Shown: piece after piece, positions 13,754-31,463 of the stretch
How positions within the stretch are numbered: position 1 is the stretch's first letter
Layout of the letters: every line of letters begins with the position of its first letter
Source of the DNA: Microterricola viridarii
GTDB taxonomy: Bacteria; Actinomycetota; Actinomycetes; Actinomycetales; Microbacteriaceae
Direction: 5' to 3'
NCBI RefSeq assembly: GCF_900104895.1
Contig: NZ_LT629742.1
Location: 2,356,001 to 2,420,000 of the forward strand
DNA length: 64,000 nucleotides
The notes under the pieces: generated by a model
Told to the model about the DNA's origin: nothing
What the model saw: only the letters and a program-made list of their open reading frames with translations
Database searches by the model: none
Position numbers and translations under genes: made by a program

Positions 13754-14908
13754 GTGACGCCTCCCGTCACGTCGCGCGCGGCACCGTCTCGAGCGGGAGC
13801 CGAGGACGCAGTGGCCGTGCTCGCCCGTGCAGACGAGCGGATCGGCGAACGAAGCGGGTACCTCAACCACCTGCTCGTGCGATCCGAGAGCATCTCGTCA
13901 TCCTGGATCGAGGGCAACAGTGTCACCCCCAAGCGGCTCGCCATTGCGGAGCTGCTTCAGCACGGCAGCCGCGTTGCCGTGGACGTCGTGGCGAACGTGC
14001 GTGCAACCGAGGAGGCCATCACCGAGCTCGGCGACCGCCTGCACTCTGTCACGACTGCGGACATCGAACGCTTGCAGCACCTCATCGAGCCGCGGCTCGC
14101 GCCCGGCCTCCGCACCGAGCAGAACTGGGTGGGCGGGCCCGGCTGGAGCCCACTGCGCGCGGACTTCGTCCCGCCGCCAGCGTCCGAAGTCGGCAGGCTT
14201 GTCGATGACCTCGCCCGGTTCGTTACCGCCACCACCGGCAATCCGGTCGTGCGGGCGGCGATCGCCCACGCGCAGTTCGAGACGATTCACCCGTTCATCG
14301 ACGGCAACGGCCGCACCGGACGCGCGCTCATCCACACGGTGCTTCGCCGCGCCGATGCGCTGCGGAACACCCTGATCCCGATCAGCACGGTGTTCGCCGG
14401 CGACAAGGACCGTTACATCGCCGGGCTCACGGCCTACCGCGAGATCCCCTCCCGGCTGGACGAGTGGGTCATCGCCTTCGCCGAGGCCGCCGAGCTGGCC
14501 GCCGGCAACGCCGTCAGGCTGTCCTCGGACATCGCAGCCCTCGACGCCGCGGTACGGGAGGAGCTGATCCGATTTCGTCGGGCGCAGGGTATCAAGCCGG
14601 CCACACCTCGCCGTGATGCCGTGGTGCTCCGCATTCTGGATGCACTGGCCACCGACCCGGTGCTCACCATTGAGACGGCGGCCGAGCGCCACGAGGTGTC
14701 GATAGGGGCCGCGCACCGCGCCCTCGTCCAGCTGGCCGACGCGGGGATCCTCGGCCGCACCAAGGACCACAAGGGCAAGCTGATCTGCTGGACGGCCGAC
14801 CTGCACCTGGCGCTGGTGAGCCTCACGGAGCACAGCAACCGCGTCGGGGTCGGCGACACGGGGGCCGGCCACCCGCGTCTCGGGCCGCCTGGAGTGAATA
14901 AACGTTGA
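13754..14908 (+). CDS. Fic family protein (class II AMPylator type) with C-terminal winged helix
   Basis: A 384-residue Fic protein if the GTG at 13754 is the start; the true start is uncertain because no strong ribosome-binding site is seen. The N-terminal segment contains the inhibitory motif SSWIEG (residues 49-54), which marks class II Fic proteins. The catalytic loop is complete: HPFIDGNGRTGR at residues 179-190 with H179. The C-terminal 100 residues resemble a winged helix (IETAAERHEVSIGAAHRALVQLADAGIL). Fic enzymes transfer AMP or other nucleotides to target hydroxyls and often behave as toxins. The last ten codons and the stop lie inside the repeat at 14878-14930, so the native C-terminus may have been altered by an insertion event. 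Confidence 0.88.
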   Translation: MTPPVTSRAAPSRAGAEDAVAVLARADERIGERSGYLNHLLVRSESISSSWIEGNSVTPKRLAIAELLQHGSRVAVDVVANVRATEEAITELGDRLHSVTTADIERLQHLIEPRLAPGLRTEQNWVGGPGWSPLRADFVPPPASEVGRLVDDLARFVTATTGNPVVRAAIAHAQFETIHPFIDGNGRTGRALIHTVLRRADALRNTLIPISTVFAGDKDRYIAGLTAYREIPSRLDEWVIAFAEAAELAAGNAVRLSSDIAALDAAVREELIRFRRAQGIKPATPRRDAVVLRILDALATDPVLTIETAAERHEVSIGAAHRALVQLADAGILGRTKDHKGKLICWTADLHLALVSLTEHSNRVGVGDTGAGHPRLGPPGVNKR

Positions 14909-14930
14909 ACAAACGTGCGCGCGTCAAGTC
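14878..14930. repeat. Short copy of the island boundary repeat
   Basis: These 53 bases match 17829-17881 and the ends of the long repeats at 22364-22416 and 31265-31317 with only a few changes. The block contains the tandem motif GAATAAACGTTGAACAAACG followed by GTGCGCGCGTCAAGTC. The tRNA-like part of the repeat is missing here. It looks like one edge of an integrated element or a scar of recombination. Confidence 0.75.
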
Positions 14931-17678: not shown

Positions 17679-17881
17679 GTAGGGCGGACGGGACTTGAAC
17701 CCGTGACCGGCGGACCCCGGCCGGCACTCCCCCGCGAGCCATCTTGCCTCGAGCAACCTCGAGCATTCTCGGCCTGACTAGGGATTTCTTGCGTGGTGTA
17801 CTCCATTGTATCGACCCACCTCGACCCATCTCGGGCCGTCTGGAGTGAATAAACGTTGAATAAACGTGCGCGCCTCAAGTC
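17679..17881. repeat. Island boundary repeat with tRNA 3'-end-like sequence (copy A)
   Basis: Read on the minus strand, this block ends in a T-arm and acceptor-like sequence: a five-base stem ACGGG/CCCGT closing the loop TTCAAGT, followed by CCGCCCTAC. The other end carries the tandem motif GAATAAACGTTGAATAAACG. Copies with the same order of parts lie at 22213-22416 and 31118-31317. No anticodon arm or complete cloverleaf is present, so this is not an intact tRNA gene. It resembles an attachment site of elements that integrate in tRNA 3' ends. Confidence 0.7.
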
Positions 17882-19119: not shown

Positions 19120-19533
19120 TCACTCCAAGTCCGGTTCGGGAATCTCCGGCGGCGCGGGATAGTCCGAGATCGACGACAGAAACACCCCAGACACAAAGTG
19201 CGGATTGTCCGAGTTGCTCGTGATCTCGACGAGAATCGCATCACCGTCGCACTCGAGGACGGTATACGTGTCTTCCTCGCGGAACTCGAGGCCCTGCTCG
19301 TCCGTACCGGCAGTGTGAACCGTGAAGCTACGGCCCAATGTTGGACAGGGCGGGCGTTGGTGGCGAGAGTTCTCTATGGCCTTCATGATGGCCTTCGCGG
19401 CCTTCTGAGCGCCCACGGTGATCAGCCCGCCCGCAGCGAGCGTGCCGCCGATCAAGAGGGTGCCGGCCTTGGCGGGCCCACCCAGCGTCTTGATGAGCTT
19501 GGTGATGTCCTGGTACGCCCCGAGATTCCCCAT
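19120..19533 (-). CDS. Small hypothetical protein with one glycine-rich hydrophobic segment
   Basis: A 137-residue protein if the ATG at 19533 (MGNLGAYQDITKLIKTLGG) is used; an in-frame start 14 codons upstream is possible. Residues 20-40 (AGTLLIGGTLAAGGLITVGAQ) form a hydrophobic, glycine-rich helix candidate, and the remainder is a soluble acidic domain ending in a proline-rich tail (YPAPPEIPEP). It is divergent from the PD-(D/E)XK-like gene, with 67 bases between their starts. One membrane segment plus a small soluble domain next to a nuclease-like gene would fit an effector, but this is inference. Confidence 0.6.
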   Translation of the reverse strand: MGNLGAYQDITKLIKTLGGPAKAGTLLIGGTLAAGGLITVGAQKAAKAIMKAIENSRHQRPPCPTLGRSFTVHTAGTDEQGLEFREEDTYTVLECDGDAILVEITSNSDNPHFVSGVFLSSISDYPAPPEIPEPDLE

Positions 19534-19600
19534 GGCGGAGAGTCTACTGTTCGGACCGAAGCCCTCGGAGCGCACCGTACTGTCCCACTACGGTAAGAGC

Positions 19601-20629
19601 ATGTCGCTGACTCGTCATCTCAAGAACGCAGACTCTCCTGTCCGGAACTTCATCTACGCGAGCGCACCGGCCCTCGCAGCAGCAGGGATTCGGGGCCCAA
19701 TTGGTACGGCGACGGCGAAGAAGTTCGGTTTCGACAAGCTCACGTCTCTCGTGACTCAGATTCCCATCCCGGCAGAAGTGAAGCGGGCCCAGAGGAAGTC
19801 CCACGCGGTCGTGGCGGGAATGGCGCTGGACTATCGCCTCCGTATGGACTTGCCGGGCTTCGATGTCGGCGAGACCACGGCCTGGAGAGGCCTCGAACGT
19901 CTCCAAGCAAACTCGGATGCCATACATCGGGGTAAGCACATCGCGCAGTTGCTGCAGGACGCGCTCAACTTCGGCTATCTGACGCTCAAGGAGAAGGACC
20001 CACATCCTCTGAGCCTCGCTCGGATCTCCATCCCGCTTGCCTGGTGCGAAGCCATTTACCGCGCCGGGCCTGTGTCAGCGCTCACCAACGACCTGGGTCG
20101 TCGGATCAAGCGTGCGGAGGACGCCGTCGGGCTGATGATGAGTATCGACGAAGAACTAATCTTCGATGTGGCTCAGATGCACAAGCCGCTCGTCCCACTC
20201 CTACAGGAGTGGGACGAAGCGGAAGCGGACGGGCGCGTCTACACTCCGAATCCTACGTTCCTCGGAAGCAACGCGGTGGGCGGCGCCGATGCCGACCTCG
20301 TGATCGACGATCTGCTTGTCGAGGTCAAGACCCGCGAGCAAATCACGAATCCGTGGATCCGGGACACTCTCTTTCAGCTCCTCGGCTACGCGTTGCTCGA
20401 CATCGACGACTTGCACGGTATCCGCCGTGTGGCGATTCTGTTGCCGCGTCAGCCGTACATAGCAATTTGGGATCTGGATGACTTGCTGGGTCGAGATGCC
20501 GACGATGCATTGCCAGAGCTGCGCGAGGAGTTCGCTGCTCTGCTCATGGGCATGATGAGCAATCAGCCCCGCGAGGGTGGAGCAGACGACGAGTTCGACG
20601 ATGACGAGCTCGTCGCCGAGCTTGATTGA
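19601..20629 (+). CDS. PD-(D/E)XK nuclease-like protein
   Basis: A 342-residue protein. The start at 19601 (MSLTRHLKNADSPVRNF) was chosen because TACGGT at 19589-19594 lies exactly six bases upstream, fitting a leaderless promoter. Residues 230-244 read DADLVIDDLLVEVKT, a match to the nuclease core with D232, E241 and K243, and the helix after it has RDTLFQLLGYALLD with Q259, a common accessory residue of this superfamily. The N-terminal 200 residues are mostly helical and unrecognised. The acidic tail (DDEFDDDELVAELD) is low-complexity. It is followed after 20 bases by an unknown gene, probably in one operon. A role in defence is an inference. Confidence 0.75.
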   Translation: MSLTRHLKNADSPVRNFIYASAPALAAAGIRGPIGTATAKKFGFDKLTSLVTQIPIPAEVKRAQRKSHAVVAGMALDYRLRMDLPGFDVGETTAWRGLERLQANSDAIHRGKHIAQLLQDALNFGYLTLKEKDPHPLSLARISIPLAWCEAIYRAGPVSALTNDLGRRIKRAEDAVGLMMSIDEELIFDVAQMHKPLVPLLQEWDEAEADGRVYTPNPTFLGSNAVGGADADLVIDDLLVEVKTREQITNPWIRDTLFQLLGYALLDIDDLHGIRRVAILLPRQPYIAIWDLDDLLGRDADDALPELREEFAALLMGMMSNQPREGGADDEFDDDELVAELD

Positions 20630-21351: not shown

Positions 21352-21724
21352 ACATGGCGACAACGCCTACGTACGAGATGAAGCGAGGGCGTCTGTACTC
21401 CCACCAAGCCTGACGGCGGCCGCGCCGAAAAGCACGGCTTCCCTTGACGGAGGGACAGGAATGCGGACCGTGACCCTTTCAAAGACTATAGACAACCAAG
21501 TTCCTTGGATGGAGTCCCTACTGTTGCTTGTTGCTTGACCACTCGATCCGAACTGACTCGGCCGCATGCACCTCTGCGCGGGCTCGCCGGCCGTGGCCGA
21601 TCGACTAGATCGTCGCGGTGGGGCCATGTCCTCGCAATGTCAATCAAGGTGCGCCAAAGGCAAGACTGGCCCGCGACTTGTGGTGCTCGCGACAGACTCT
21701 TCGTGCTGCACTCCGCGGTACAGG
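21352..21724. other. About 370 bases without a gene
   Basis: No reading frame with a believable start and codon pattern was found. The stretch leads into the long repeat at 21725. Confidence 0.6.
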
Positions 21725-22416
21725 CCCCATATGAGTTGGATGCCGTGACACCACGACTGACGTTATACACGACTGACGTTATAAGTGAGGTGCCGCGTAA
21801 TGCGAACGGAGCGCAACGCGCGCCGCTGCCGCCAGACGCTCCACGACGACCAGTCGAGACAGGCCGAGCCGCGATGAACGCCTCCCGAGGTGATTTGAAC
21901 CCGAGACCAGGTTGCACCGAATAAGTGTTGAATAGACGCGCGCGGGAATCCGCCGATACCCATGCCACCGACGGACTCGGATCCCCGGAACGGCGCGGAT
22001 CTTGCCCGGCCCCGCCACGGCCAGGCCGCCGAAAACGTGGGGAATAAACGTTGAACGACCTGTCAACACAATCGACATGAGGCTCGGTAGACCCAGCTCA
22101 AAGATATATTCGCGTCGACAAAATGAGACTTGACTCCGTGTCGAATAACGAGTGAATGGCCACTTCACATACAAACGCATGGATTTAAATAGTACTTGAT
22201 CAGGGATTTTACAGTAGGGCGGACGGGACTTGAACCCGTGACCGGCGGGCTCCATCCGCGCCTCCCCCGCGAGTCGATTTACGTCGACTCACCTCGAGTA
22301 ATCTCGATCTGACTAGGGATTCCTTGCGTGATGTTCCCTCATTATATCGAGATATCTCGACTCCCCTCGGGCCATCTGGAGTGAATAGACGTTGAATAGA
22401 CGTGCACGCATCAAGT
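21725..22416. repeat. Long imperfect direct repeat, island boundary (copy B)
   Basis: This 692-base block matches 30626-31317 in the same orientation over its whole length, with scattered differences but equal total length. Its right third (22213-22416) is the same tRNA-3'-end-like and arm-motif unit as copy A at 17679-17881. Inside it, GAATAAGTGTTGAATAGACG (from 21920) and GGGAATAAACGTTGAACG (from 22040) are further arm-like motifs, and two degraded T-arm-like sequences lie near 21893 and 22126. No coding capacity is apparent. An attachment site with clustered integrase-binding motifs is the best explanation. Confidence 0.75.
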
Positions 22417-22739
22417 CTCCTCGACGGCACTACACCACACCGACGGGCGGGACCTCGCACCGAGGATCTCCTCGTTTCGCAGGAGAGTCAATATGATCCG
22501 TGCGCTGGTTCGCTATCGCACACTCGATCGCTCGCTGCAGCCGCTCCAGCGCCGTCGCTCGCGCAGCTTGATCTAGTTAGCGGTGCGACCAACCAACTCT
22601 CGTGAACGACTGCCTGCCAGCCTCCGACCGCAACGCCGAAGCTTAGGAGGCCTGGAAGCGGCCGCAGTTGCAAACCGCAGATGCCTTGGGGCACAAGCAC
22701 CGTCTGGACTTCCGAATACATTCCGAATACCATGTACTT
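22417..22739. other. About 320 bases without a gene, upstream of the toxin-antitoxin pair
   Basis: No believable gene was found. The segment probably contains the promoter of the antitoxin gene, but no clear -35/-10 pair could be chosen. Confidence 0.5.
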
Positions 22740-23198
22740 ATGACCCTGCTCAATGAACTCCGGACCACGACGAGACGCTCATCCGACCTGAGCAAGCACT
22801 CGGCCGACGTGTTCGCCGAGGCTGAGGACCACACCGTCCAGATCACTCGCCGCGACGGTGAGACTCTCGTGCTGATGTCTCAGCGAGAGGCGGACGCTCG
22901 CGACACACTGCTGCAATTTGCAGCAGACCTCATCACGGTCACACTCGATGACGAGGGCACTCTCGCATCACGGATGGCGGACCGATTCCAATGGATGCTT
23001 GCATTGTCACCGGAGGATCAGACGAAGTGCGCGCAAGATCTCGTCAATGCCGCTCGAGCGTCGTTCGCAACGGGGCAGCCGCACCTCGCCATCGCCGAGC
23101 TCACCTCCTGGCGCGAGACCGCAACGGCGATCGCGGCTGGACTCTCAAGCCTTCCGATCGAGTGGCTCGACGACGCTGAGCCAGTCGAGCGTCCCTGA
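22740..23198 (+). CDS. Type II antitoxin, Phd/YefM-like
   Basis: A 152-residue protein if the ATG at 22740 is used. Its first 70 residues match the Phd-type antitoxin pattern: MTLLNELRTTTRRSSDLSKHSADVFAEA, then the strand ITRRDGETLVLMSQREAD. The C-terminal part is longer than in minimal antitoxins and ends in WRETATAIAAGLSSLPIEWLDD. Antitoxins of this kind bind their own promoter and neutralise the partner toxin. The toxin gene follows after only 2 bases, the normal antitoxin-first order. Confidence 0.8.
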   Translation: MTLLNELRTTTRRSSDLSKHSADVFAEAEDHTVQITRRDGETLVLMSQREADARDTLLQFAADLITVTLDDEGTLASRMADRFQWMLALSPEDQTKCAQDLVNAARASFATGQPHLAIAELTSWRETATAIAAGLSSLPIEWLDDAEPVERP

Positions 23199-23200
23199 CT

Positions 23201-23542
23201 GTGGCAAAAGACGAATTGGTCGCCAGGCCCATCAAGAAGACCGAGTACACGATTCGATTCGCGTCGACTGGCGCGCAAAAAGGGTGGCGCGACTTGGTCG
23301 CAATGATCCGAAACCCCATGACCGACGTATGGGACTTCCTCACGAAGACGCCCACAGCGAGGACACCGACGAATTACCCGCTCCGCGGGAATCTTGAGTT
23401 CATCCAGCGTGGGGGCAAGAGTCACGCGCGCTGGCAGCACAAGCCCACCGCTAAAGGTGACGCTCGAATCTGGTTCTACGTAGACGGACAGGACGTGTTC
23501 CTCGAACAGGTCCACACTCATCATCCGAACGCGACAAAGTGA
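23201..23542 (+). CDS. Type II toxin, RelE/ParE-like
   Basis: A 113-residue basic protein with a GTG start 2 bases after the antitoxin stop. The pattern YTIRFASTGAQKGWRDLV in the N-terminal third, WDFLTKTPTARTPTNYPLRG in the middle and ARIWFYVDGQDVFLEQVHTHHPNATK at the end is that of the actinobacterial RelE/ParE superfamily branch, including the final HxxHPxxT. These toxins cleave ribosome-bound mRNA or poison gyrase; which applies here cannot be told. With the antitoxin it forms an addiction module that may stabilise the island. Confidence 0.8.
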   Translation: MAKDELVARPIKKTEYTIRFASTGAQKGWRDLVAMIRNPMTDVWDFLTKTPTARTPTNYPLRGNLEFIQRGGKSHARWQHKPTAKGDARIWFYVDGQDVFLEQVHTHHPNATK

Positions 23543-24274
23543 GCGCAGGCGAGAGCAACTAGCGAAGGCTGGCCAAGCACTAGTCAACGGACGTAACAGC
23601 TCTTCTCTGGGCTCTGAACGAATGACCCGAGTACAGCGGAGAACTTGATCTCCATGGCGATCCCCGATCAAATGCTTGGCCGCGATGGTGGCGATTCCCG
23701 CCATCCTGTTGGCTGGTCGTCGACCAACGTATGGCGATCATTGGTCATCCGGCTCCGAACTGCGGCGCGCTGCGCTCCAACCTACGGGCGTCGCCACGGC
23801 TACCGGCTGCCGGCTACCGTCAACTTGGTCGTGTCCTGCATCTCCAGCACCGAACGGCCGAATTGCCTCAGAGCAACCACATTGAGACCATCTCTCCCCC
23901 GAGGCCGTTGTCGATGTCGATGTCATTCTCTGGTCGAGCGCCCTTTGCTACTGAGCGCTCATCGAAGTCGAGCGACGAGGAACTATGCACCTCACCCGAC
24001 TGGCCGGCACACTCGAGATGCTCAATGTAGACGCTCCCGCGAAGAACTACTCATTCCGAGAGGAAACGTTTGACAAGTCGATGAACTGCTCCTCGCTGCA
24101 CCACCATCACCACACACGACTGGTTCGAAGTAGGGATTGAACGGGCGCTCGCTCAGCTCAAAGGTTCTCGCGGATCCTTAGCGTGCGTCTAACACAGCCC
24201 CGACGAAATGGTCGTGGCACCATTGAGCTGCCCTCGGCTTCGCTGGGGAGAATTCAATTGCAATCGGGGGAACT
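23543..24274. other. About 730 bases without a convincing gene
   Basis: Only short overlapping reading frames with no family pattern are present. The last 40 bases hold the ribosome-binding site of gajA (GGGGGA, 4-5 bases before the start). Part of the stretch may be the remains of a lost gene, but none could be named. Confidence 0.55.
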
Positions 24275-26248
24275 ATGTGGCTATCGCAACTCGACCTTTC
24301 TAACTATCGGGCCTGCGCGGATACGTCCTTGCATCTCGACCCCAACCTGACCGTTCTCGTTGGGGAGAACGCATCTGGCAAAAGCGCCTTGGTAGACGGA
24401 ATTCGACTGGCCACTTATCCCGCATCCGGGCGATCCACACTGTGGTTCGACCGAGAACGCGACGTTCATCGAGCAGCACCCGAAGGCACAGCAGTATCCG
24501 CGAAGCTGACCTTTTCTGGGCTTTCCGAGGTTGAGCAGGCGATCTATATGGCACACCTAGTGGACGGTGACGACAAGCTTGTTTTTGGGACCGCGTGGGC
24601 AACAGCAACAGACGTTCCACGACGGAACATCCAATCAATCTCCATCGGAAGTGCCAGCGTTGACGATCCGGAGCCTTCGGCCCGACGGCGCATAGCCCAC
24701 GTGTACTTACCGCCACTACGCGATGCGGTCAAAGATCTCGACGGCGGCGACGGCGTTCAGCTCTTCGAAGTGCTCAAGGTGCTCCTCGACAAGGATCAAG
24801 ACGGCGAGGAAAAGTTCGTGGACTTTGCGAACAATGCGTTGTCGACTATCGCGGACCAAGCATTGCCGAAGATGGCATCGGCGAATATTCAAGCCCAGAT
24901 GGGCGATGCAACTCCGCCGTCCCGTGCACACACCGTGGGAATAGCATCCCGGGAGCAAGAATTACGTCGGTTGTCCCGACTGCTTCGTGTGCAGCTGGCC
25001 GAAGACGGCCTCCAGCTGGGTGAGGTCGGACAAATCGGACTCGGCTATGCGAACTTGCTGTACATCTCGATGATCGTCCTCCAACTCTCGCGAGCATCGG
25101 AGTATGACTTGACGTTGCTGCTGGTCGAAGAGCCCGAGGCACATCTGCACCCGCAACTGCAGACCGTCCTGCTGGATTACCTTATGAACCGGGCCCGTGA
25201 AAGTGGCACGTCCGACGCGAAACTGCGGCCCGCAGGAAAGATTCAAGTGATAGTCACGACGCACTCGCCTGTCTTGGCCAGTGCGGTCAGCATCAGCAAC
25301 GTCGGCGTGGTGACCCGTCACGCCACTGATGCAACGACTTCACCATTGCAGGACCAGCAGGAAGTTCAAGGCGATGAGCAGCACCCGGAGGACCATACAG
25401 AAGAGCAAGCAACGTCCGGCGAGGAATCCATTCGTGCAACTGGCCTGTGGACGACACGGGTGACATCGATTGGACGACTTGGACTCACCAAGCCTGAAAT
25501 TCGAAAGATTGACCGCTATCTGCACACCACGCGTGCGGCACTGCTCTTTGCGCGCCACGTCATTCTGGTCGAAGGCATTGCCGAGAGTGTCCTTATGCCC
25601 GTCTTCGCGGGCATCATCTACTCACAGACACCTCCAGTTGAATCGGAGACGCCGGCAGAACGAGAAGCGCGCGAGGAGCGCAATGAGCACAACCGCACGT
25701 CGCTGCGACAGTTCAAATCGGCGTCGATTGTCGCAGTCGACGGTGTCGATTTCCTGCCCTACCTGAAGCTCCTCTTGGGAGGTAACACGCATCGGCTGGA
25801 TCGTCTTGCAGTCATCACCGATGCCGATGGCGAGGCTGGACAGCTACGCCGGGCCACTTATCGGAACGCCTTCTCTAAGTCAGTTCACCTCAAGCGGTTG
25901 GAAGCGTTTGTCGGCACCAGAACGCTGGAAGCCGACCTCTTCGCCCAGAAGGACAACGAGACCATCCTCCGCACCGCGTTTCTGGAGCTTCACAAGTTGT
26001 CCGCGACCAGCTGGGATGCTTTGGCAGAGGCGGCGAAGGACATGTCTCCTGCAGAACGTGCGGATCTTTTTGGGGACGCGATCAGGACAACCAGGAAAGC
26101 TGAAGACAAGTTGTCTCTCAATATCGGCAAAGGTGACTTTGCTCAAGTCGTGGCGGAGGGCGCACTTCTAGCAAGTGAAGCGGGAACCGTTCCGCTTACG
26201 GTCCCGCCCTACATCGTGGACGCAATCCGGTTTGTGGCTGAGAAGTGA
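24275..26248 (+). CDS. gajA: Gabija protein GajA: OLD-family ATPase/TOPRIM nuclease
   Basis: A 657-residue protein. The N-terminal SMC-like ATPase has LDLSNYRACADTSLHL, Walker A GENASGKS (30-37), Walker B LLLVEEPEAH (281-290) and the switch TTHSP (328-332). The C-terminal TOPRIM nuclease has LVEGIAE (431-437, E433) and the metal-binding TDADG (515-519, D516/D518), followed by TLEADLF. This is the domain order of GajA, a nucleotide-sensing DNA nickase that acts with GajB against phage. It is longer than the well-studied 578-residue protein; an acidic, glutamine-rich insert at about 350-390 lies between the two domains. The stop overlaps the helicase start as GTGA. It stands in a repeat-bounded defence island. 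Confidence 0.92.
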   Translation: MWLSQLDLSNYRACADTSLHLDPNLTVLVGENASGKSALVDGIRLATYPASGRSTLWFDRERDVHRAAPEGTAVSAKLTFSGLSEVEQAIYMAHLVDGDDKLVFGTAWATATDVPRRNIQSISIGSASVDDPEPSARRRIAHVYLPPLRDAVKDLDGGDGVQLFEVLKVLLDKDQDGEEKFVDFANNALSTIADQALPKMASANIQAQMGDATPPSRAHTVGIASREQELRRLSRLLRVQLAEDGLQLGEVGQIGLGYANLLYISMIVLQLSRASEYDLTLLLVEEPEAHLHPQLQTVLLDYLMNRARESGTSDAKLRPAGKIQVIVTTHSPVLASAVSISNVGVVTRHATDATTSPLQDQQEVQGDEQHPEDHTEEQATSGEESIRATGLWTTRVTSIGRLGLTKPEIRKIDRYLHTTRAALLFARHVILVEGIAESVLMPVFAGIIYSQTPPVESETPAEREAREERNEHNRTSLRQFKSASIVAVDGVDFLPYLKLLLGGNTHRLDRLAVITDADGEAGQLRRATYRNAFSKSVHLKRLEAFVGTRTLEADLFAQKDNETILRTAFLELHKLSATSWDALAEAAKDMSPAERADLFGDAIRTTRKAEDKLSLNIGKGDFAQVVAEGALLASEAGTVPLTVPPYIVDAIRFVAEK

Positions 26249-28005
26249 CCGACGAGTATCTCAGCTCGCAGCAGCTGAACGCCTTAGCTCCGGCAATTCG
26301 GCTGATCGAGGCGGGCCCGGGATCGGGGAAGACCAGGGCCGTGGTCGAGCGATACCGGCAAGTCGCTTCCCAGCCCGGCCAGTTTGCCTCACTGGTGTCC
26401 TTCACCAACAGCGCTGTCAATGAAGTACGCAAGCGCTGCGCGAGCCAGCCCCACCTCCTCCAACACCCAAACTTCGTCGGCACTTTCGACGCGTTCTTCC
26501 ACCGATTTGTCACTACGCCATCTTTCCTGCGTACGGAAGGCAAGCAACTTCGATACGTCGCGTCATGGGACGATCTTCCGGATCACTGGTCTCGACTACG
26601 GCCCCCAAAGGGAGGAACCGGCTTCCCCCTCACCGCGTTCGAACCAAGGCCAGATGGGCGGTTCCAGATTGTCGAGAAGCGCTTGTCTCGACTTGAGCGC
26701 GCTATGTGGACCAGTCTCCCCGCATTCACTCGGAACAACCTTGCTGCCGAGGCCGCCACTCGCAATGCCCACTTGGCTTCTGCCGGAATTATGAGCGCCG
26801 AAAGCGCGCGCAGCTACGCGCTGGGTATTCTTCACACCGCTGAAGGAACTCGAATCTTGGAACGTCTGCACCGCCGTTTCTCCGAGCTCATCGTTGACGA
26901 GTTCCAAGACTGCAACGAGACCGAAATCCAACTCTTGGAACTTCTGCAAGAGAAAGGCCTGGCCATCGTCGCTGTCGCTGATCCAGATCAGGCCATATAC
27001 AACTTCCGCCAAGTAGCAGCAGGCGACATCTACCGGAAATTCCGAGACACGGTACCGGAGAGCGCTATAGCTCCTCTCAACGAATGCCACCGCTCCACCC
27101 AGTCGATTTGTGACGTCGTGACGAGTTTGCGAAGTATCTCCCCTGACCCTGTCGTCGCGTCTCCCACGGCACCAGCCGGTTCACCCCATGTCTACGTGTT
27201 CAAGGGAAAACGCAACGAGATCATGGCCAGGGCCAATACAGTCCTTCAGACCCATGGAATCAGCCCGCAAGACGCCCGAGTACTCGCCCACGGAAGCACC
27301 GATGCTCGACAACTACTTCATCATCAATCAGCACTCACGGGAAACTCCTCCGCCCGACGGGTCCTTCACGCGATACTCGAACTGCGCGGGCGAGGAACTG
27401 CCACACATCGCCTATCCGCACTAAACGCCCTCGGCCGCGTATTCCTATCAGCGATCGAACAACCAGGCATCCCGCAGACCTCAACCATGGATGAGACCCT
27501 AGCAATCCTCGGGATCGAAGCTGCGACGCTTCGTTTGCTATCCAAAAGGCTGGTGACGACAAGCCAGCAGTGGCAAAACCCGGACGACTATGCGACCTCG
27601 TTGTCTGCTGTCATTAGTGAAGGCTTCGCCGAATTCGGGCTCAATCCGAAATCGCAGCTGAAGGTTGTCTTTCCCAAACCAAAACCGGACCTGTGGGCCC
27701 ATTGGACAAACCAAGTTGATGGTCTCTCCACGGATACGTCCTTCGGTTGGCAATGGTCAAACATTCATCAAGTGAAGGGCGGCGAATTTGACGCCATCTT
27801 AATGTCTATCCCGTCAAAGGCCCGCGGAGACAACCCACACGCACTCGACGACTGGGAGACCAACACCAACTCGGAGCAGCGACGGGTCCTTTATGTGGGC
27901 GCCAGTCGCGCGCAGCGGGTTCTGATGTTCTGGCCGGAAGGGCAGCGCTACGCGCAGCTAGTACGGATACTGAAACGCGACGGTATCCCCTACTTGGTCG
28001 TCTGA
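26245..28005 (+). CDS. gajB: Gabija protein GajB: UvrD/Rep-like helicase
   Basis: A 586-residue superfamily 1A helicase-like ATPase with a GTG start overlapping the gajA stop. All main motifs are seen: Walker A AGPGSGKT (23-30), Ia VSFTNSAVNEVRKR, motif II VDEFQD (217-222), motif III ADPDQAIYNFRQ (245-256), motif IV NECHRS (279-284), motif V HQVKGGEFD (508-516) and motif VI RRVLYVGASRAQ (546-557). In Gabija, GajB joins a GajA tetramer and helps trigger DNA cutting and nucleotide depletion during infection. The length is above the typical value of about 500 residues. The immediate partner and the overlap make the Gabija assignment strong, although the pair could also be called an OLD-helicase operon. 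Confidence 0.92.
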   Translation: MTDEYLSSQQLNALAPAIRLIEAGPGSGKTRAVVERYRQVASQPGQFASLVSFTNSAVNEVRKRCASQPHLLQHPNFVGTFDAFFHRFVTTPSFLRTEGKQLRYVASWDDLPDHWSRLRPPKGGTGFPLTAFEPRPDGRFQIVEKRLSRLERAMWTSLPAFTRNNLAAEAATRNAHLASAGIMSAESARSYALGILHTAEGTRILERLHRRFSELIVDEFQDCNETEIQLLELLQEKGLAIVAVADPDQAIYNFRQVAAGDIYRKFRDTVPESAIAPLNECHRSTQSICDVVTSLRSISPDPVVASPTAPAGSPHVYVFKGKRNEIMARANTVLQTHGISPQDARVLAHGSTDARQLLHHQSALTGNSSARRVLHAILELRGRGTATHRLSALNALGRVFLSAIEQPGIPQTSTMDETLAILGIEAATLRLLSKRLVTTSQQWQNPDDYATSLSAVISEGFAEFGLNPKSQLKVVFPKPKPDLWAHWTNQVDGLSTDTSFGWQWSNIHQVKGGEFDAILMSIPSKARGDNPHALDDWETNTNSEQRRVLYVGASRAQRVLMFWPEGQRYAQLVRILKRDGIPYLVV

Positions 28006-28606
28006 TCCGGACTTTTCCACCGCGCGGCACGCCACAGAACTCCGCCCTGCCGGAGCGTATGAATTGGCAGCGGCACTGCTAGCGGTGCAGCTTGCGGACA
28101 CACTCGGGTGACGCCCCCGTGGCGTGGTGCATCTTTCGGCAGAGTGTCACGACGAGCAGAGACCCGTACGAGGGAAGAACTTCAAATCAGACCCTGCGTG
28201 AGACGCTCACCGCACTCATCGAGCGGATCCCTCGAGTCAGCCAGAACAAGTAGGCCATCAGTCCCCACTCGCCGCGACGACCGTGGCGCGGGCCATGGGG
28301 AGCGGAATCCTCTCCTGCTCGACCCGGCGTTTCCGTGCCCAGGACGGGTGCACCAGATCGAGGTAGAGCGCGCGCTCATCGGCGGTGAGATGAGGGACAG
28401 GACGAGGCTCCCGCGCCGCCGAGGGTGAGGACCATTTCGGGATGGATTCATACGGCGTGGATGAGTTCGTCGCCTACAACGCCGACACGACCTCTGAACA
28501 CAATGCGTTCCCAAGCCAGGCGAACCAGCTTTGTGTATCACCCACGCCGTTCGACCGACGGGTCTCGCGCCACGGGCCAACTGGTGAGGATCACTAGGCT
28601 TGCGCC
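28006..28606. other. About 600 bases without a firm gene
   Basis: Short reading frames are present on both strands but none has a family pattern. A 51-codon ORF at 28442-28597 has weak support only. The last 12 bases are the promoter of the next gene. Confidence 0.5.
28595..28606 (+). promoter_or_regulatory. Leaderless promoter, first of a duplicated pair
   Basis: TAGGCT (28595-28600) is followed by six bases and the ATG. About 24 bases around it, from GGATCAC through the first two codons, are identical to 29523-29546 in front of the GIY-YIG gene. There is no ribosome-binding site. Confidence 0.65.
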
Positions 28607-29497
28607 ATGAACAGAGGCGAACCTCGCAACCTTCAAGAGGGCTGGTGTCCGGAGGGCGAGGCCTGGTCGAACGCCGCCGCGAGAGTTGACCCGGAAGAGT
28701 GGGAACGAATCAAGAACGCGTTCGACCCGAAGAAGGCCGCCGAAGTGACGGCGGCGCTGCTCACTTACGCCTTCACCGGCCTCACGCCGTCGAACCAAGA
28801 CGATCAGGGAGGGCAAGGGCAGGGCCGCAATGGCGCGGTAGACATTCTGCTCACGGATGCAACCACGGGCGAGCAGCAGGCTATGGAGGTCACCACCTCC
28901 CTCGACCGCCGCTACCAAGACTCTTCCGCCGCTATCGCCAAGTTTGAGGAAGCGGTGACGGTTTCATACAACGGTGAACGTTCCTGGTCGCTAGAACTCG
29001 AACGAGGCTGGGAAACGTTACGGCTCGTGAAAGATCTTGCTCCCACCGTGGCGAATGCGTTAAATGAAATGCCCGCTACAGGTGAGCCCATCTCAGGCCC
29101 AAGGACACTTCACTCGCACGTCGTCGCCTGGCCTATCGACCCAGTGGCCCAGCCCACGGTGAAGGTGACAAGTAGGAATGCAGGGGCGCTCAATCGCGAC
29201 GACCCGTATCTCGATGCGCTCACCAACTACCTCGCGACGGACATCACGATAAAGTCCAAGCTCGACAAACTAGAGAGTGAGGCCCCGCGCTTCAACGCCA
29301 CGCGGTCTCACCTGTACATCGGCATGGCCTCCACCGGAGTACTTGGAGGCCTTCTTCCCGCAAGCCCCTCCTACTTCACCTGGGGAACATTTGCGACGCC
29401 CAAGCCGCTTACCGACCTTTGGCTAGAGGGCGGCACAGGTGAGATGTACCACTGGACGCAGGAAAACGAATGGATTTTCCACAACCTGCAGAAGTGA
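28607..29497 (+). CDS. Hypothetical protein with nuclease-like EVT motif
   Basis: A 296-residue soluble protein. Near residue 85 it has AVDILLTDATTGEQQAMEVTTSLD, an aspartate strand followed by a GxExxxMEVT strand that resembles the PD-(D/E)XK core with the lysine replaced by threonine. The C-terminus, SHLYIGMASTGVLGGLLPA and LTDLWLEGG followed by an aromatic-rich end, resembles a group of uncharacterised actinobacterial proteins with similar EVT motifs. Its promoter is a near copy of the one of the next gene, so the two are probably expressed together as separate leaderless messages. A defence role is suggested only by location. Confidence 0.65.
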   Translation: MNRGEPRNLQEGWCPEGEAWSNAAARVDPEEWERIKNAFDPKKAAEVTAALLTYAFTGLTPSNQDDQGGQGQGRNGAVDILLTDATTGEQQAMEVTTSLDRRYQDSSAAIAKFEEAVTVSYNGERSWSLELERGWETLRLVKDLAPTVANALNEMPATGEPISGPRTLHSHVVAWPIDPVAQPTVKVTSRNAGALNRDDPYLDALTNYLATDITIKSKLDKLESEAPRFNATRSHLYIGMASTGVLGGLLPASPSYFTWGTFATPKPLTDLWLEGGTGEMYHWTQENEWIFHNLQK

Positions 29498-29528
29498 CAC
29501 GGTTCACCGGCAGACTAGTGGGGATCAC

Positions 29529-29540
29529 TAGGCTTGCGCC
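29529..29540 (+). promoter_or_regulatory. Leaderless promoter, second of a duplicated pair
   Basis: TAGGCT (29529-29534) lies six bases before the ATG of the GIY-YIG gene. The surrounding block is the same as that at 28589-28612, showing duplication or shared ancestry of the two leaders. Confidence 0.65.
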
Positions 29541-30335
29541 ATGAAGCTGATTGAGGACTACGAACGGCCGCCCCGCAAGAGCCACAAGCGGCTTTCCGGC
29601 AACGCTCCCGCTCGAACTGCGCTGCACTTCGGCATCAATGTTCGGAGCGGAAGTCGGCACGGCCTGAACATCGACCGAACCACCTACGCTGACATCAACA
29701 AGCGGTCCTCAACCCACTTTCCGCGAGAGCTGAACCCCGCTCTTTGGGATGCGCTTGATGAATATTTCGAAGATGACGAACATCGAATCCACACCGACGA
29801 TTGGTGCGCAGCTCATCAGGCGCGAGCACTTGAAAACTTCGACCTCAACATGGCGTACTTCGCGTCCCTCGAGCACGCGGAGTTCGATCGAGCAATTGCT
29901 GAAGCGGTGGCTGCACAGAAGGGCATGGTCGAGGTTGCCGATCTCAACGAGTGGGACGGGAAGCGTGGCCTCTACGTGATGGTGCTCGACGGCCACAGAC
30001 AGGCCTATGTGGGTATCACAGAAAGCGAGGGAGGAATCAAGGCGCGCGTCAGACAGCACTGGTCGACGAGCAAGCAGTTCGACCGCTTGCTCTGGGGTGG
30101 AGTCAACGAATCCATCCTGTCCGTAGATAGCTTTCGAGCACTCGACACCACCCGGATCTTCGCAGCACAGGTGCGCAGCCCCCTCACCCTCGAAAACAAG
30201 GTGATTGAGTCACTACCAGGGAAGTTTGTCCTGAACCGCATCGCGGGCGGAGATGCCAAGCTGATCGGTTTCGCCAGCGCGCTGGGCGCTGACATTGTGA
30301 AGAAACACCAGCTGCAGGCCGACCCAACTCCATAA
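29541..30335 (+). CDS. GIY-YIG nuclease-domain protein
   Basis: A 264-residue protein. The C-terminal half carries a GIY-YIG domain: GLYVMVLDG (143-151) and AYVGIT (155-160) as the two signature strands, the arginine-bearing helix IKARVRQHW, and LENKVIESLPGKFVLNRIAGG (217-237), which supplies the metal-binding glutamate and the conserved asparagine. The N-terminal 130 residues are unrecognised and charged. GIY-YIG enzymes cut DNA in repair, restriction and homing. It is the last gene before boundary repeat C. It shares a duplicated leader with the preceding gene, so a two-protein module is likely. Confidence 0.82.
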   Translation: MKLIEDYERPPRKSHKRLSGNAPARTALHFGINVRSGSRHGLNIDRTTYADINKRSSTHFPRELNPALWDALDEYFEDDEHRIHTDDWCAAHQARALENFDLNMAYFASLEHAEFDRAIAEAVAAQKGMVEVADLNEWDGKRGLYVMVLDGHRQAYVGITESEGGIKARVRQHWSTSKQFDRLLWGGVNESILSVDSFRALDTTRIFAAQVRSPLTLENKVIESLPGKFVLNRIAGGDAKLIGFASALGADIVKKHQLQADPTP

Positions 30336-30625
30336 CTAGATTGCCTGACCCGTCCAGTTAATCATGCCGCTGCTTTACCACCGGCGTCATCGGTTGAGAG
30401 GGCGACTGCTCGAGCACAGTGGCTCTACTCGTGCTCCTCGGCGGAACGATCCCGAGGGCGCGGTGGAGGCGCTTGTTGCCGCACAGTGCACTCAGTCGAG
30501 GGTGAGCTCCGGGACGTCGGTCGCTGTCTTCAGCGCGCCGGCGAGGAAGGGTCGTTCCTTCGCGACAGCCCCGGCGATTCAATTCGACGCTTTGGGATAC
30601 CGCTTCGAAGCGGTGGATCGTCCAG

Positions 30626-31317
30626 CCCCATATGAGTTGGCTGCTGTCACAACACGACTGACGTTCTTGGGTGGGGTGCCGCACAGCGTGAACGGAGCGC
30701 AACGCCCGCTGCTGCTGCTGCTGCTGCTGCTGACAGTCGATCCGCCACAATCGGTCGAGACAGGCCGAGCCGCGATGACCGCCTCCCGAGGTGATTTGAA
30801 CCCAAGGCCAGGTTGCAACCAATAAGTGTTGAATAGACGTGCGCGGAAATCCGTCGATTCACCTGCCGCCAACGGCCCCGGATCCCCGGAACGGCGCGGA
30901 TCTTGCCCGGCCTCGCCGCGCCCAGGCTGCAGAAAACATGGGCAATAAACGTTGAACGGCGCGCAGAAGCCGTCAACAAGCATCTCAGTAAACCCCAGGT
31001 CAAGCCAATATTCTGGTCGGCAAAATGAGACTTGAACCCGTGACTGACTATCAAATGAATGCCCGATTCACATACAAACGCATGAATATAAATAGCGCTT
31101 GATCAGGGATTTAACTGTAGGGCGGACGGGACTTGAACCCGTGACCGGCGGGCTTCACACAGCCCTCCCCCGCGAGTGGATTCACCTCGGGACACCTCGA
31201 GTAATCTCGATCTGACTAGGGATTCCTTGCGTGATGTTTCCTCATCATATCGCGCCACCTCGACTCACCTCGGGCCGCCTGGAGTGATTAAACGTTGAAT
31301 AAACGTGCGCGCATCAA
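30626..31317. repeat. Long imperfect direct repeat, island boundary (copy C)
   Basis: This 692-base block is the partner of 21725-22416. It ends with the same T-arm-like sequence (ACGGG-TTCAAGT-CCCGT, minus strand, within 31118-31150) and the tandem motif TTAAACGTTGAATAAACG near 31288. Two more T-arm-like sequences, at about 30793 and 31026, and arm-like motifs at about 30821 and 30939, repeat the order seen in copy B. Copy C differs in having a GCT run. Together copies B and C bracket the toxin-antitoxin, Gabija and GIY-YIG genes. Confidence 0.78.
30708..30731. repeat. Trinucleotide repeat (GCT)8
   Basis: Eight uninterrupted GCT units lie inside copy C. The matching place in copy B (about 21820) has only scattered GCC/GCT triplets, so the run expanded after the two copies separated. 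It is not inside a supported gene. Confidence 0.9.
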
Positions 31318-31463
31318 ATATCGAAGGCCAACGGGCTAAACCGTTCGATTGCATCGACGACGACGATTCAAGTGCCGGGCCGGAACTAGCACCGCGCAAT
31401 CCAACCGAGCTGGCGGATTGTGTCGATCATCGCGACGGCTGCACGGGCGCCAAAGCGCAAACT

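Follow-up and report, generated by a model that had tools for sequence, protein, structure and literature searches.

Gabija systems as described for Bacillus cereus VD045 (structures 8sm3, 8x5i and 8tjy) consist of an OLD ATPase-TOPRIM gene followed by a gene for a UvrD-like helicase. The sections of the literature on which we draw give lengths of 578 amino acids (aa) for GajA and 494 aa for GajB, and delimit in GajA an ATPase part (residues 1-351) that directly abuts the TOPRIM part (residues 352-578) (PMC10822852). GajB docks on a GajA tetramer (PMC10781630; PMC10822852), and nucleotides are reported to suppress GajA cleavage via the ATPase-like domain (PMC8136825). GajA of L. salivarius shows no sequence specificity in its cleavage of DNA, and deoxynucleoside triphosphates inhibit it (PMC13304284); a preprint proposes that Gabija targets linear DNA devoid of RecBCD (PMC12407980).

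Here we compare with these systems a locus of Microterricola viridarii, contained in a stretch of 64,000 nucleotides (the window; contig NZ_LT629742.1, positions 2,356,001 to 2,420,000). As judged from its sequence, the segment from position 24275 to 28005 of the window is a Gabija anti-phage system that is apparently intact, ordinary, and distant from that of B. cereus. We consider it very probable that all parts of the following reading hold jointly: a Gabija operon for defence whose GajA belongs to a widespread lineage, a flexible and drifting linker within GajA, and a location of the operon in a cassette bounded by tRNA-Met repeats.

Identity of the gajA-gajB operon

The original prediction, made from the letters alone, had described an OLD-type ATPase/TOPRIM gene that overlaps a UvrD-like helicase gene by four bases, with all expected motifs, and had named the pair Gabija; profiles, motifs, gene order and predicted fold bear this out. 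Both frames are open, and the gajA stop and the gajB start share the bases GTGA. GajA carries the motifs GENASGKS (residue 30), LLLVEEPE (281), THSP (329), LVEG (431), DAD (516) and KGDFA (619), and GajB possesses six helicase motifs, GPGSGKT (residue 24), DEFQD (218), DPDQAI (246), HRST (282), HQVKGGE (508) and VGASRA (551), so that every motif sought was present. Searches with the PADLOC hidden Markov models gave full-length matches for both proteins and did not place them in another OLD-helicase family: GajA matches PDLC00073 with 574.3 bits (9.2e-173; residues 1-656 to profile positions 1-588 of 589), and GajB matches PDLC00136 with 362.8 bits (9.9e-109; residues 6-585), E-values that exclude chance for both assignments. 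The top 18 PADLOC families for the GajA protein are all GajA. Pfam recognizes AAA_15 (104.1 bits, cut-off 32.1) and OLD-like_TOPRIM (28.5 bits, cut-off 23.2) in GajA, and UvrD-helicase (90.2 bits, over its cut-off) in GajB; no NCBIfam model reached its curated cut-off for either protein.

Relatives were drawn from the same class (394 genomes) and from one scan of a collection of named genomes. The class search matched 136 of the 394 genomes at an E-value of 0.001, mostly through short ATPase-only matches, and the best 30 loci were used; the named loci, the best 80 of 508, were chosen by exact peptide patterns including EEPEAHLH and therefore favour near relatives and this very motif. A GajA-like frame was present in 110 loci; three of these were dropped because the frame continued past the 3' end and 15 because they scored below 60 bits, which leaves 92. 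A helicase frame adjoins gajA in 88 of these 92 relatives. Members of the PDLC00073 lineage from Mycobacterium gordonae (locus L031) and from a genome of the same family (G336, locus L002) share 46-47% identity with the GajA studied here and likewise have an adjoining helicase gene.

In an alignment of the query with 55 of the 78 eligible named loci (56 rows), E433, G434, E437, D516 and D518 of GajA are invariant and K619 is nearly so. The TOPRIM metal residues expected for class 2 OLD proteins (E, DxD, K) were thus found, and in the wider alignment they are kept in 89-91 of the 92 rows; together with Walker A/B and the H-loop they are nearly invariant among relatives. By motif order only, the six residues correspond to E379, the next glycine, E383, D432, D434 and K541 of B. 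cereus GajA, a set of residues taken (glycine apart) from parts of PMC10822852 and PMC10781630; D511 and D513 lie outside it. The AlphaFold2 model built from the 56 rows has a mean predicted local distance difference test score (pLDDT) of 88.3 and a predicted template modelling score of 0.86. Its best solved match is GajA 8x5i (Z 22.1, root-mean-square deviation 4.8, 475 residues aligned), which Foldseek likewise ranks first, and the resemblance extends to 8sm3 (Z 21.4).

Several observations weigh against this assignment. When GajA was searched as a single sequence at an E-value of 0.01, OLD and PtuA chains were recovered and a solved Gabija GajA chain was not found. The 56-row GajA profile ranks OLD 6p74 (2.3e-46) and an OLD nuclease domain (1.5e-40) before the solved GajA chains (5.3e-40), and for GajB, Escherichia coli UvrD is a far better match (8.7e-17) than GajB of B. 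cereus (1.7e-4). The margin in fold is small as well, with Z 22.1 for GajA versus 20.5 for the OLD nuclease 6p74 of Thermus scotoductus, which has the same ATPase-TOPRIM fold, and with about 15% identity to B. cereus GajA in the structural alignment. Unlike 6p74, however, the protein studied here has a helicase partner and matches GajA models better. Since both proteins are remote from the B. cereus pair, membership in Gabija rests on profiles, gene pair and fold together.

Another OLD-helicase defence family, of the PARIS, Septu or retron type, was weighed as an alternative. Models of AriA (1.7e-30) and PtuA (52.7 bits) match the ATPase part of GajA, and the OLD nuclease of retron Eco8 is a fold match to the GajA model (Z 18.2). 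Yet these matches are far weaker than those to GajA and GajB or only partial, the PtuA cut-off being 500 bits, and the partner of GajA is a UvrD-like helicase that is itself a full-length match to GajB models; we have rejected these identities and regard them as exceedingly improbable. The pair might also be a decayed or silent Gabija remnant within a composite island, for the island around it does contain partial and diverged repeat copies. Against this stand two intact frames with their four-base overlap, the preserved catalytic motifs, and a purine-rich GGGGGA that precedes the gajA ATG, and such a remnant seems to us very unlikely, if less so than a different family.

The join between the ATPase and TOPRIM halves of GajA

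GajA had been noted to be about 80 residues longer than the studied protein, and to carry an acidic, glutamine-rich insert at about residues 350-390 between its ATPase and nuclease parts. Both descriptions agree with our data: the protein measures 657 versus 578 aa, and residues 351-395 hold 11 D/E, 2 K/R and 6 Q. The insert is real, but it provides only about 40 of the roughly 80 extra residues; about half lie elsewhere, mostly in the TOPRIM half, where residues 453-472 are extra too and fall partly inside a helix (460-481) predicted by AlphaFold2 with high confidence. GajB, on whose length the original prediction was silent, is also longer than its studied counterpart, by 92 residues (586 versus 494 aa). 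This is an ordinary size, since 73 of the 88 adjacent helicase frames in the relatives span 475-688 codons, the other 15 having 193-358 (counted from the first start codon).

Across the 92 relatives, the stretch that aligns with residues 351-395 is between 4 and 83 residues long: 49 rows have 4-6 residues there, and 43 have 8-83. Near relatives differ from the 45 residues of the query in both length and letters (48 in L002, 18 in L031, 34 in L032), and identity to L002, the best-scoring relative, amounts to 169/350 in the ATPase part and to 9/45 in the linker. Among the 33 linkers of at least 18 residues, D/E ranges from 0 to 12 and Q from 0 to 6, so that the acidity of the linker is not conserved and the query (11 and 6) stands at the rich end of the spread. 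In a quick GajA tree calculated without the linker columns (approximate likelihood ratio support of the SH-aLRT type only, midpoint root, with flags on four long branches and on 21 rows of unusual composition), the query falls into a clade of 36 rows with a support of 100. All 36 have at least 8 residues at the join, and 34 have an adjoining helicase frame; seven other rows with at least 8 residues fall outside the clade, and the linker-length label needs four changes on the tree versus about 31 when shuffled. The clade covers Actinomycetota, Pseudomonadota, Acidobacteriota and Verrucomicrobiota. The insert is hence a trait of a whole clade rather than of this particular GajA, and its presence throughout the clade with varying size argues for a longer join that was inherited in the lineage while length and letters drifted.

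Residues 351-390 form the part of the AlphaFold2 model with the lowest confidence: their 10-residue blocks, with pLDDT values of 60, 47, 50 and 54, are the only ones below 70, and the listed segments below 50 comprise residues 362-366, 368-370 and 378-380. From this low model confidence and the variability, the linker would appear to be disordered and under little functional constraint. Residues 351-395 are best taken for a flexible linker between ATPase and TOPRIM that varies in length and sequence, and most likely they merely tether the two halves. The terms "insertion", "linker" and "disordered" were not found in the main text of PMC10822852. One point that counts against this reading is that the linker lengths depend on a single MAFFT alignment.

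The original prediction went further and considered that the insert could alter nucleotide sensing or assembly. Some observations fit an insert that acts on nucleotide sensing or on the GajA-GajB assembly: it is situated at the join of the ATPase and nuclease halves, at least 8 residues have been retained there across the clade of 36, and its sequence is acidic, with the highest Q count (6) among the 33 linkers of at least 18 residues. The 4-83 residues found at this position, the little sequence that relatives share there, the lack of conserved acidity and the low model confidence speak against such a role, and with only nine of 45 positions shared even with L002 the proposal finds no support in our comparison. 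We judge it unlikely, and retain the simple tether as the preferred reading.

A cassette between tRNA-Met repeats

The 35-nucleotide attachment-like cores of the window (Table 1) share one orientation, and a fourth copy (L131 15507-15541) is the 3' end of the tRNA-Met gene at genome positions 2471506-2471580, about 51.5 kb past the window; all four are identical direct copies. The cores at 22214 and 31117 lie 8903 bases apart and bound an 8.9-kb cassette that holds Gabija. From the outer core to tRNA-Met the distance is about 97.8 kb, which delimits an island of about 98 kb; inside it lie two cassettes, one of 4.5 and one of 8.9 kb. At the outer core the G+C content drops, from 0.687 at 16-18 kb to 0.612 at 18-20 kb. 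It is 0.61-0.68 at the right end, where a sharp step is absent; the right edge was placed by the tRNA and the integrase.

Table 1. Positions in the window of the Gabija genes, of the extra stretches in GajA, and of the repeats around the operon
Feature	Position	Strand	Remarks
gajA	24275-26248	+	ATG start, 657 aa; OLD-type ABC ATPase and TOPRIM nuclease; PADLOC, Pfam, motifs, fold
gajB	26245-28005	+	GTG start, 586 aa; UvrD-like superfamily 1 helicase; PADLOC, Pfam, motifs
Acidic, Q-rich linker, gajA codons 351-395	25325-25459	+	Between ATPase and TOPRIM
Second extra stretch, gajA codons 453-472	25631-25690	+	In <30% of relatives; TOPRIM half
35-nucleotide attachment-like core, outer island edge	17679-17713	-	Identical to tRNA-Met 3' end
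35-nucleotide attachment-like core, one edge of the Gabija cassette	22214-22248	-	Identical to tRNA-Met 3' end
35-nucleotide attachment-like core, other edge of the Gabija cassette	31117-31151	-	Identical to tRNA-Met 3' end
Imperfect direct repeat of about 700 nucleotides with core, copy 1	21724-22419		Families D1, D2, D6, D7, D8; 80-90% identity to copy 2
Imperfect direct repeat of about 700 nucleotides with core, copy 2	30625-31322		Repeat comparison

A frame for a 416-aa tyrosine integrase (PF00589; PHROGs integrase) starts about 350 bases from tRNA-Met and reads away from it; its PF00589 match, at genome positions 2469969-2470457, is the only one of the genome near the island and lies outside the cassette. 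Within the cassette (22214-31151) no tyrosine integrase was found among the cassette proteins scanned with Pfam and PHROGs or in the PF00589 scan of the genome, serine recombinases not being part of the genome-wide search. The motif TTCAACGTTTATT occurs with at most one mismatch near each of the four cores, where it might act as an integrase arm site. It is present once more at 14897-14909 (in a doubled form at 14895-14914), outside the island in G+C-rich DNA and not accompanied by a tRNA core.

The arrangement of the cassette resembles that of cis-mobilizable elements: its attachment-like flanks match those of a neighbouring integrase-bearing island, with which it stands in tandem at one tRNA gene, and no tyrosine integrase was found inside it. 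A literature search for "Gabija" joined with "cis-mobilizable element" found no such pairing. The gene to the left of the island was matched in 38 of 60 genomes of the same family (own included). Of these loci 15, again with the own one, were scanned together with about 1.5 kb of flank to either side; an empty site was not seen, and the one tRNA found was a tRNA-Glu.

Transfer-messenger RNA (tmRNA) was considered as the source of the repeats, as Rfam gave weak tmRNA matches, below the cut-off, at all three of them; it was rejected, since the tmRNA of the genome lies at 1586822-1587197 and the exact 35-nucleotide match is to tRNA-Met. Each of the approximately 700-nucleotide repeats also contains, on the minus strand, another T-arm-like sequence (GGGTTCAAATCACC; 21889-21902 and 30790-30803), perhaps a further tRNA remnant.

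Gabija shares the cassette with a UzuA homologue, with a 296-aa protein that belongs to no known family, and with what may be an antitoxin-toxin pair. The possible pair lies upstream of Gabija (22668-23542) and comprises a PhdYefM antitoxin match below the cut-off (21.4 versus 29.8 bits) and a subsequent 113-aa frame without matches that would be the toxin. The 296-aa protein (28607-29497), located between Gabija and the UzuA homologue, matched no family and, among 396 genomes of the phylum, only its own. The UzuA homologue (29541-30335; PADLOC, 9e-88) was matched in two of the 396 genomes, own included. To the eye it has a GIY-YIG-like look, a candidate feature. Two 41-nucleotide stretches (28571-28611 and 29505-29545) that precede the 296-aa gene and the UzuA homologue are 88% alike, with the last 24 nucleotides to ATGAA identical, and look like a shared leader. 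A published listing that names Uzume in Actinobacteria describes its mechanism as unknown (PMC10482375).

In the neighbouring 4.5-kb cassette, a 403-aa protein (19418-20629) weakly matches the PADLOC model of a reverse transcriptase-associated PDDEXK protein (2.5e-05). In a search for recurrence of the Gabija cassette, seven neighbour proteins had no match among the frames of at least 150 codons in loci L001-L110, a search that would miss the 113-aa frame and in which L001-L030 span about 1.5 kb only. In genome G336, the Gabija genes also lie in a defence neighbourhood, but a different one, with McrBC-like genes, PRTase-CE and reverse transcriptase genes, a restriction methylase and tRNA-Leu.

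A model for this Gabija system and its setting

If the published GajA and GajB mechanisms can be carried over to this system by analogy, GajA would form a tetrameric core on which GajB is docked, and the ATPase part would hold the TOPRIM nuclease in check while nucleotides are abundant. A drop in nucleotides, or the appearance of DNA ends lacking RecBCD, would then lead the complex to attack invading DNA, with the 45-residue acidic, Q-rich segment presumably serving as the flexible linker between ATPase and TOPRIM. The Gabija cassette was probably acquired by integrase-mediated accretion.

A bolder proposal combines both peculiarities of the locus: the supported GajA clade with long and rapidly changing linkers would be a functional subtype, with a loosely tethered nuclease and a strength of nucleotide control unlike that of the B. 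cereus type, whose two parts abut directly, and this copy would at the same time be an integrase-less cassette mobilisable by the neighbouring tRNA-Met integrase. We regard this combination as unlikely.

The cassette setting and the linker clade are the points of most note at this locus, the rest of which is ordinary. With an ATPase-TOPRIM join that runs from 4 to 83 residues, and with B. cereus GajA near one end of this range, linker length offers itself as a natural variable with which the restraint of the nuclease by ATP binding can be probed. The cassette, in turn, offers a concrete setting in which to test how a defence system that lacks its own recombinase might be mobile.

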